A DNA stretch of 64,000 nt from Arachidicoccus soli (GTDB lineage Bacteria > Bacteroidota > Bacteroidia > Chitinophagales > Chitinophagaceae). A model generated the notes under the pieces. The model worked only from the letters and a program-made list of their open reading frames with translations. It was not told the DNA's origin and searched no databases. The translations under genes and the position numbers were made by a program. The stretch lies in NCBI RefSeq assembly GCF_003600625.1, contig NZ_CP032489.1, positions 3,534,001 to 3,598,000 of the forward strand, given 5' to 3'. Of the stretch, positions 37,348 through 37,533 are shown piece after piece; position 1 is the first letter of the stretch, and every line of letters begins with the position of its first letter.

Positions 37348-37355
37348 TAATTTTG
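37348..37355 (+). promoter_or_regulatory. Second promoter of the met operon (-7, TAATTTTG)
   Basis: TAATTTTG matches TAnnTTTG and lies 14 nt before a short leader ORF. It is downstream of the riboswitch terminator, so transcripts from it would escape SAM control. The -33 element is weak. Confidence 0.45.
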
Positions 37356-37369
37356 TAGAGTAATAGTAA

Positions 37370-37447
37370 ATGAATAAAGCAACAAAAATAGCATTGTTTA
37401 ATTCCATCGCAGCTCTGAAGAGTCGATGTTTTTGTATGTGCATCTAG
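37370..37447 (+). CDS. Cys-rich leader peptide before metY
   Basis: A 25-codon ORF from ATG 37370 to TAG at 37445-37447 ends in RCFCMCI: three Cys codons and one Met codon in the last six positions, with none before except the start. It begins 14 nt after a promoter-like element and ends 86 bp before metY. The hairpins at its 3' end are mutually exclusive. This is the layout of a ribosome-stalling attenuator sensing Cys-tRNA or Met-tRNA. MetY uses sulfide or makes homocysteine, so cysteine or sulfur sensing would make sense. No homology search was possible, and chance cannot be excluded for so short an ORF. Confidence 0.6.
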   Translation: MNKATKIALFNSIAALKSRCFCMCI

Positions 37448-37488
37448 CACATTTATTCATCCATATTTCCTCTCTAGATGAGGTATCT
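37437..37488 (+). promoter_or_regulatory. Mutually exclusive hairpins after the Cys-rich leader ORF
   Basis: TGTGC and GCACA (37437-37451) form a 5-bp hairpin over the last Cys codon and stop. The same segment's CATCTAG (37441-37447) is a perfect complement of CTAGATG (37474-37480), which otherwise belongs to small hairpins (CCTC / GAGG, or AGAT / ATCT). A T-rich stretch follows at 37499-37522. It looks like a switch, but no classic terminator stem directly abuts the Ts. Confidence 0.45.
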
Positions 37489-37533
37489 GCATTATTCTAA
37501 TTCTTTTTTATTTAATTTTTAAATGATTATTCA

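Follow-up and report, generated by a model that had tools for sequence, protein, structure and literature searches.

Upstream of metY in Arachidicoccus soli, a 25-codon open reading frame (ORF) ends in C-F-C-M-C-I, and we consider it quite probable that this ORF encodes a leader peptide that attenuates the metY-metX-hom gene group in response to cysteine. Comparison with related loci supports the cysteine-attenuator reading well, and through the leader the cell would probably gauge how much cysteine it has before a methionine-pathway gene is switched on. The first-pass annotation of this DNA had left the leader and a nearby SAM riboswitch unconnected; in the sequences of many relatives, the riboswitch directly precedes a start codon. 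Positions refer to the window, that is, the whole stretch of 64,000 nucleotides that was analysed (Table 1).

Table 1. Features of the window and, in the last line, the ORFs of cysD operons, given by locus
Feature	Position	Strand	Evidence
TACCTTTG, Bacteroidota-type -7 element, candidate promoter of the riboswitch transcript	37042..37049	+	sequence
SAM-I riboswitch aptamer (RF00162)	37067..37171	+	covariance model, 97.6 bits vs gathering score 44.4
Candidate antiterminator, AAGTCAG (37167-37173) with CTGACTT (37218-37224)	37167..37224	+	complementarity; inferred
Intrinsic terminator of the riboswitch, hairpin and U tract	37211..37242	+	-11.9 kcal/mol, z -3.15, 0/200 shuffles as good
CTATTAATTTTGTAG, palindromic CTAY..RTAG overlapping the -7-like TAATTTTG; candidate second promoter and operator, leader-metY transcript	37344..37358	+	pattern search
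Leader ORF MNKATKIALFNSIAALKSRCFCMCI, 25 residues, stop codon 37445-37447	37370..37447	+	read from sequence
Hairpin ATGTGC-ATCTA-GCACAT at the final codons, its loop holding part of the stop codon	37436..37452	+	z -3.6 vs shuffles; flagged by hairpin scan
CTAGATG, alternative partner of CATCTAG (37441-37447), 26 nt past the stop	37474..37480	+	complementarity
metY-type O-acetylhomoserine sulfhydrylase, regulated gene	37534..38838	+	PF01053, E 5e-126
Alpha/beta hydrolase, probably homoserine O-acetyltransferase (metX), co-directional	38911..39963	+	PF00561
Homoserine dehydrogenase, co-directional, overlapping the metX candidate	39956..41212	+	PF00742, E 6.1e-49
Cys ORFs of cysD operons	L156 582-650; L157 557-667 (reverse complement); L164 589-675; L220 701-769; L226 731-796		

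The leader ORF and its gene group

The first-pass annotation had described a promoter-like element followed after 14 nt by a 25-codon ORF with three Cys codons and one Met codon at its end, and all of this is in place: the -7-like TAATTTTG lies at 37348-37355, the ATG begins at 37370, the Cys codons are at 37427, 37433 and 37439, all within the final six residues, and the Met codon is at 37436. In some relatives, the -7-like element is nearer to the leader ATG than the 14 nt of the window. The ORF is separated by 86 nt from the gene that we take to be metY, following that annotation, and the next gene, judged from its context, is presumably metX. Since metY, the probable metX and the homoserine dehydrogenase gene all run in one direction, the leader precedes a gene group leading from homoserine to homocysteine.

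A tblastn search with the 25-mer found a single copy in its own genome and matches at E <= 1 in 29 of 196 genomes, its own included, the others being weak (best, 0.0147). We took this best foreign match (L002) as chance, as no long ORF follows it on the same strand and ORFs of the opposite strand overlie it.

Conservation of cysteine-tailed leaders at metY

We compared the best 80 of 593 confirmed metY loci and 30 loci of relatives (of 42 matches among 119), the window included, and counted as a leader any ATG ORF of 10-60 codons within 450 nt upstream of metY. The 110 rows contain two pairs of identical proteins (L043/L118 and L055/L129), and L066 (134 nt upstream) was left out of the count based on the last 10 residues. 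By that count, at least four Cys occur in the tail at 33 of the 80 metY loci, at none of 80 reverse-strand regions and in none of 20 shuffles of the whole set. When the last 12 residues are considered, the figures are 51 of 110 for metY and 0 of 110 for the reverse strand, and by either rule only 1 of 274 other genes at the same loci has such a tail upstream; these control genes are the remaining ORFs of the best 80 loci that reach 150 aa, and their upstream regions are not restricted to intergenic DNA. With at least three Cys in the last 12 residues, the counts become 61 of 110 metY loci, 6 of 110 reversed regions and 6 of 274 other genes, and with at least three in the last 10, 2 of 80 reverse-strand regions and a mean of 1.3 of 80 shuffled regions qualify. 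Thus, the leader of the window alone could be a chance occurrence, at around 2% per region, and it is the comparison that makes the predicted leader real: we take the ORF as real because cysteine-tailed leaders are strongly conserved across relatives.

Among the five other genomes of the genus, metY is matched at E <= 1e-150 in four, each of which carries a run of Cys near the end of a leader. These leaders are MQLTTNIQVIRMMYIMPVMCCCCICMGA, two close variants of it, and MSYISNIFISFRISVMCCCMCASRI; they have 25 and 28 residues (25 in the window) and lie 76-101 nt from metY (86 nt in the window), and the Cys tail of the window is weaker than theirs. Outside the tail, three of them (L112-L114) are alike, while the fourth (L115) and the leader of the window resemble neither those three nor each other. 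Leader peptides that are similar only in their Cys codons are typical of leader-peptide behaviour, and a homology search therefore fails with them.

Leaders with at least four Cys in the last 12 residues were found in Cytophagales, Sphingobacteriales, Chitinophagales, Saprospirales (1/2) and Flavobacteriales (1/2), orders being assigned by record name or kinship, and at none of the metY loci of Bacteroidales (0/2) or Marinilabiliales (0/3). The four-Cys threshold is missed at 59 of the 110 metY loci. The trait requires at least 23 changes on a quick MetY tree, which suggests that the leader has frequently been gained or lost. The first-pass annotation had tied its proposal to conservation of the ORF in relatives that keep the riboswitch, and there it stands, though about half of the loci are without the ORF. 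Two loci without a SAM riboswitch match (L067 and L103) also have Cys-tailed ORFs before metY, MLLSKQIFFSTLFAAMRMCCCC and MKTLTFSLWLSYRNTYSMYGCCC.

The SAM-I riboswitch and the leader

In the window, the leader ATG is 198 nt from the aptamer and not directly downstream of it, and five further loci (L032, L035, L044, L052 and L055) share an arrangement in which the leader lies 198-383 nt past the aptamer. The riboswitch has its own candidate promoter, with a -7 element of the Bacteroidota type (consensus TAnnTTTG), and a terminator, which was absent from the output of a simpler hairpin scan. Read in this way, the riboswitch of the window is a separate terminator module, and two putative switch modules stand in series before metY. 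An inverted repeat, TTAGGCT/AGCCTAA, is found at 37250-37280, past the terminator of the riboswitch and ahead of the second promoter-like element.

This second element is overlain by a palindrome of the form CTAY..RTAG. Using a pattern devised post hoc, we found this palindrome over a TAnnTTTG-like -7 box before 14 of 21 window-type leaders, against 0-2% per shuffled region; it occurs at 37344-37358 and upstream of L112-L114, L123-L125, L127, L133 and others, with matches in three of the four congeners. It is possibly a promoter plus the operator of a regulator, and possibly of a sulfur regulator. By eye, elements like CTAY-N-RTAG also precede the cysD operons at L156, L163 and L164.

In many relatives, the aptamer and a start codon are much closer together. 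A SAM-I aptamer ends within 582 nt of metY at 63 of 81 loci (the window and 80 others), a count that does not include the matches of L034 and L043 or the more distant one in L064, which are approximately 1.3-1.8 kb upstream of metY. An ATG follows the aptamer after 4-15 nt at 52 of these 63 loci, with a peak at 9 nt; by order, this is the case in 32 of 33 Cytophagales, 12 of 14 Sphingobacteriales, 2 of 6 Chitinophagales, 2 of 2 Saprospirales, 1 of 1 Flavobacteriales and 3 of 7 unplaced records. As a control, we used the best-scoring 30 SAM-I loci of Bacteroidia minus the window and one other metY locus, and only 4 of these 28 switches have an ATG at that distance (L178, L182, L186 and L199), with ORFs of at least 12 codons in 2. 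Thus, the close spacing goes with metY.

Blind to Cys content, we chose the 49 ORFs that adjoin the riboswitch and have at least 12 codons. Their last 10 residues are 36.5% Cys, compared with 3.2% elsewhere in the ORF, and Met comes second (10.0% vs 4.8%). Three TGY codons in a row occur before metY at 25 of the 52 riboswitch-adjacent loci, and at 24 of these 25 the first such run is in frame with the riboswitch-adjacent ATG, with no stop between; an in-frame CCCCC is encoded at the exception (L084) too. The usage of Cys codons is mixed (113 TGT and 81 TGC), which argues against a simple repeat.

At least three Cys in the last 12 residues are found in 31 of the 52 riboswitch-adjacent ORFs. The remaining 21 have a median of 31 open codons, whereas shuffles have a mean of 13.1 and a maximum of 33 in 300; these 21 include 7 from Algoriphagus, L062, which is counted here via an earlier out-of-frame ATG, and L061, whose CCCC lies 15 residues before the stop. 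In six Algoriphagus loci (L070, L078, L085, L087, L091 and L093), the aptamer ends 8-9 nt before the ATG of a frame of 18-63 open codons in which Cys codons are few or gone. Leaders of this form might be gated by SAM yet lack a cysteine sensor. With the ATG so close behind the aptamer, translation of the leader may be gated by SAM in Cytophagales and Sphingobacteriales, and the simplest reading may be that SAM binding closes a helix beside the start codon and blocks translation of the leader. Ribosomes of Bacteroidota mostly do without Shine-Dalgarno pairing.

Structures at the end of the leader

The proposal that the last leader codons pair either locally or with a downstream segment agrees with the folding of the window, in which both the terminal hairpin and a duplex between the last codons and the CTAGATG-containing stretch (-17.7 kcal/mol, z -2.4) can form. 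Beyond the window, the local hairpin and the long-range pairing differ. At 21 window-type loci, the hairpin at the last Cys codon has a mean z of -2.73, compared with -0.28 in a control window further downstream, and it often has the form GTATGCC-GTAA-GGCATAC or nearly so, with the UAA stop codon within the loop. At six loci (L032, L052, L122, L124, L136 and L139), the UAA stop of the leader sits in a GUAA tetraloop on an AUGCC/GGCAU stem. By eye, the two arms vary together at some loci, with U-A for C-G in L123 and L035 and a different stem in the window, in an alignment of 16 of the 21 loci from which L112-L115 and L125 were left out. In the congeners, the hairpin is clear in L115 (z -3.0) and not significant in L112-L114 (z -0.7 to -1.4).

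The long-range pairing is possible in the window, but we did not see it conserved: pairing between Cys codons and spacer is, on average, not above dinucleotide shuffles in the 21 window-type loci (mean z -0.70) or in 29 further-compared loci (mean z -0.48). The first set omits L121 and L129, the latter a duplicate of L055, and the second omits L072, L076 and L094, which are included in the terminator count of 32 loci given below. As a general rule, we therefore discarded this pairing, which looks convincing by eye in several Cytophagales loci but shows no excess over such shuffles.

The first-pass annotation had also likened the leader to that of the thr operon, and the terminator expected of such a leader was mostly not found. 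With hairpins of at least 11 nt and L121 added, a terminator-like hairpin follows the leader at 5 of 22 window-type loci, against 0.6 expected from shuffles; with hairpins of at least 14 nt, the count is 4 of 21, as the 13-nt hairpin of L120, the clearest case (CGGGCTTCGCCCG followed by TTTTTT), is then missed. The scan with at least 11 nt found such a hairpin at 1 of 32 riboswitch-adjacent loci (1.4 expected) and none in the spacer of the window, where a T run at 37504 is remote from any stable hairpin. For the attenuator reading as a whole, the widespread Cys-tailed leader before metY, found in all four congeners, stands, while the terminator of the thr type is mostly absent.

Proposed mechanism and alternatives

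We infer the translation of the leader, the stalling, the output step and the direction of regulation from sequence. A ribosome would translate the 25-codon ORF and, when charged tRNA-Cys is scarce, would pause on the Cys codons before the stop, covering the 5′ arm of the hairpin; with ample cysteine, it would complete the leader and depart, and the end-of-ORF hairpin would form. With the 86-nt spacer folded differently, metY would then be expressed chiefly when cysteine is short. As the spacers of the window and of most relatives have no intrinsic terminator, the output step would more likely be metY translation or Rho-dependent termination than a terminator of the thr/trp type.

Given that the riboswitch of the window appears to be a separate terminator module, SAM and cysteine would be read there in series, by a transcript that passes the SAM-I terminator. 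Most Cytophagales and Sphingobacteriales have an AUG, as a rule the leader's own, around 9 nt past the end of the aptamer, and there SAM probably decides whether the leader is translated. A more tentative proposal, which we would not yet call probable, is that in many Bacteroidota the SAM-I aptamer controls initiation of the polycysteine leader, whose stalling then controls metY, while in the window the modules lie apart with their own promoters. If this is true, the expression platform of a riboswitch would be an amino-acid attenuator, and one riboswitch with one leader peptide would form an AND gate that requires both SAM and cysteine to be low.

Several other explanations deserve consideration. 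Attenuation of the trp/thr type, in which the spacer would hold an antiterminator and an intrinsic terminator switched by stalling at the Cys codons, seems to us rather unlikely: although the last codons of the window have two alternative pairings, the flagged hairpin adjoins T-rich sequence and window-type loci such as L120 have terminator-like hairpins beyond expectation, none is found at 17 of the 22 window-type loci (the window included) or at 31 of the 32 riboswitch-adjacent loci, and the T run at 37504 is far off. It is improbable that the leader is a plain translated ORF serving the SAM riboswitch, by keeping Rho away or allowing reinitiation, with its Cys codons of minor importance. 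The open frames kept by the 21 low-Cys ORFs would suit such a role, as would the B12 riboswitch of ppe2 in M. tuberculosis, which, according to the accessible part of PMC11260477, controls a translated upstream ORF, but the Cys tails at 51 of 110 loci and the window-type leaders 198-383 nt from the riboswitch would be left unexplained.

We consider it very unlikely that the ORF of the window is a chance occurrence, whatever its relatives have. It has only three, non-consecutive, Cys codons, which chance could supply at the rate given above, and longer stretches of the window are ordinarily folded (z -0.90 for 37348-37540 and z -1.01 for 37427-37500); against this, the congeners have Cys leaders of near-equal length and distance from metY, the upstream element is matched in three of the four, and a significant last-codon hairpin is common to the window, L115 and most other window-type loci. 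It is scarcely credible that the peptide has an activity of its own, such as that of an exported Cys peptide or of one that is metal- or redox-binding. Small Cys-rich peptides can bind metals, but these sequences diverge outside the tail within one genus, as L112-L114, L115 and the window illustrate, and no NCBIfam or Pfam family was found above cut-off for the 7 and 5 leader peptides tried.

Other sulfur genes

We also examined 30 loci each of other sulfur genes, drawn from larger numbers of matches. Cys-tailed leaders were found at none of 30 cysK-like loci (reverse-strand control, 2), most of which are below the family cut-off and are probably cystathionine beta-synthases, and at none of 30 Bacteroidia cysS loci (control, 0). 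At cysD, 3 of 30 loci have a Cys-tailed ORF (control, 0), namely L220, L226 and L214, where it is inside a long ORF. Among nearer relatives, an ORF with at least three Cys in the last 12 residues precedes the first gene of the cysD operon in 3 of 15 (L156, L157 and L164, the last from congener G005), and such a leader is absent from cysD in the A. soli genome and in congeners G001-G004, further upstream included. The ORFs (for instance, MIMLFTPHIINGCCCCNTCCNC) lie 47-87 nt before the gene that precedes cysD, which by eye is cysH or similar. Thus, cysteine leader control may reach beyond metY to cysD operons. A match of one of these leaders to listeriolysin S (E 0.11) is below the cut-off and looks like an effect of composition, and we set it aside.

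Comparison with known systems

In the open-access literature, we found nothing on cysteine leader-peptide control in Bacteroidota, the cases that turned up being those of Actinobacteria and of the cysS gene of Rhodobacterales, and nothing on a SAM riboswitch combined with a leader peptide, or with metY in Bacteroidetes. The thr and trp attenuators of enterobacteria use a short leader with codons for the amino acid of the pathway and a classical terminator/antiterminator pair; the metY leaders likewise place regulatory codons of the pathway amino acid in a short leader, whereas only a few of them have the terminator/antiterminator pair, which the window lacks. Within the phylum, leader-peptide attenuation before amino-acid operons has been described for Flavobacterium psychrophilum, with neither cysteine nor metY named in that connection in the accessible part of the paper (PMC9723704), and leader-like small ORFs have been described for Bacteroides thetaiotaomicron (PMC7366714, in part).

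The accessible part of PMC8632094 proposes ribosome-mediated attenuation for the uORFC-8-2 motif upstream of cysS in Rhodobacterales, which also has an upstream ORF with tandem Cys codons. In contrast to the leaders described here, its target is cysS, before which we found no such leader in 30 Bacteroidia loci, and it has a conserved structure with a terminator-like U run. In the ppe2 system, as far as the accessible text goes (PMC11260477), the first target of the riboswitch is a translated upstream ORF, as it would be here, but the ligand is B12, the ORF is not presented as an amino-acid sensor and a section heading gives the mechanism as termination-reinitiation.

The closest counterparts are in Actinobacteria. 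Cys leader peptides of Mycobacterium, Propionibacterium and Bifidobacterium have, like those before metY, runs of Cys codons near the stop, without a conserved terminator in Mycobacterium; their targets differ, being cys operons and cbs, and the accessible portion of the source mentions no riboswitch (PMC1262725). The polycysteine leaderless small ORFs of mycobacteria have been reported as cysteine-responsive attenuators (Canestrari et al. 2020, Mol Microbiol 114:93, as relayed in portions of PMC13236596 and PMC9094748). They are likewise short and Cys-rich, lie upstream of cysteine biosynthesis genes and are said in the citing work to act through translation attenuation, while here the phylum is another, the target is metY (in some genomes, the cysD operon) and a SAM-I riboswitch is combined with the leader. 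A cysteine leader of this kind would explain how homocysteine synthesis is balanced against cysteine supply in Bacteroidota, and it would offer a natural two-input RNA device in this phylum. The best reading of the metY leaders is that they are a variant of the mycobacterial polycysteine attenuators combined with SAM sensing, appearing in several Bacteroidota orders, at a different enzyme and beside a SAM riboswitch.
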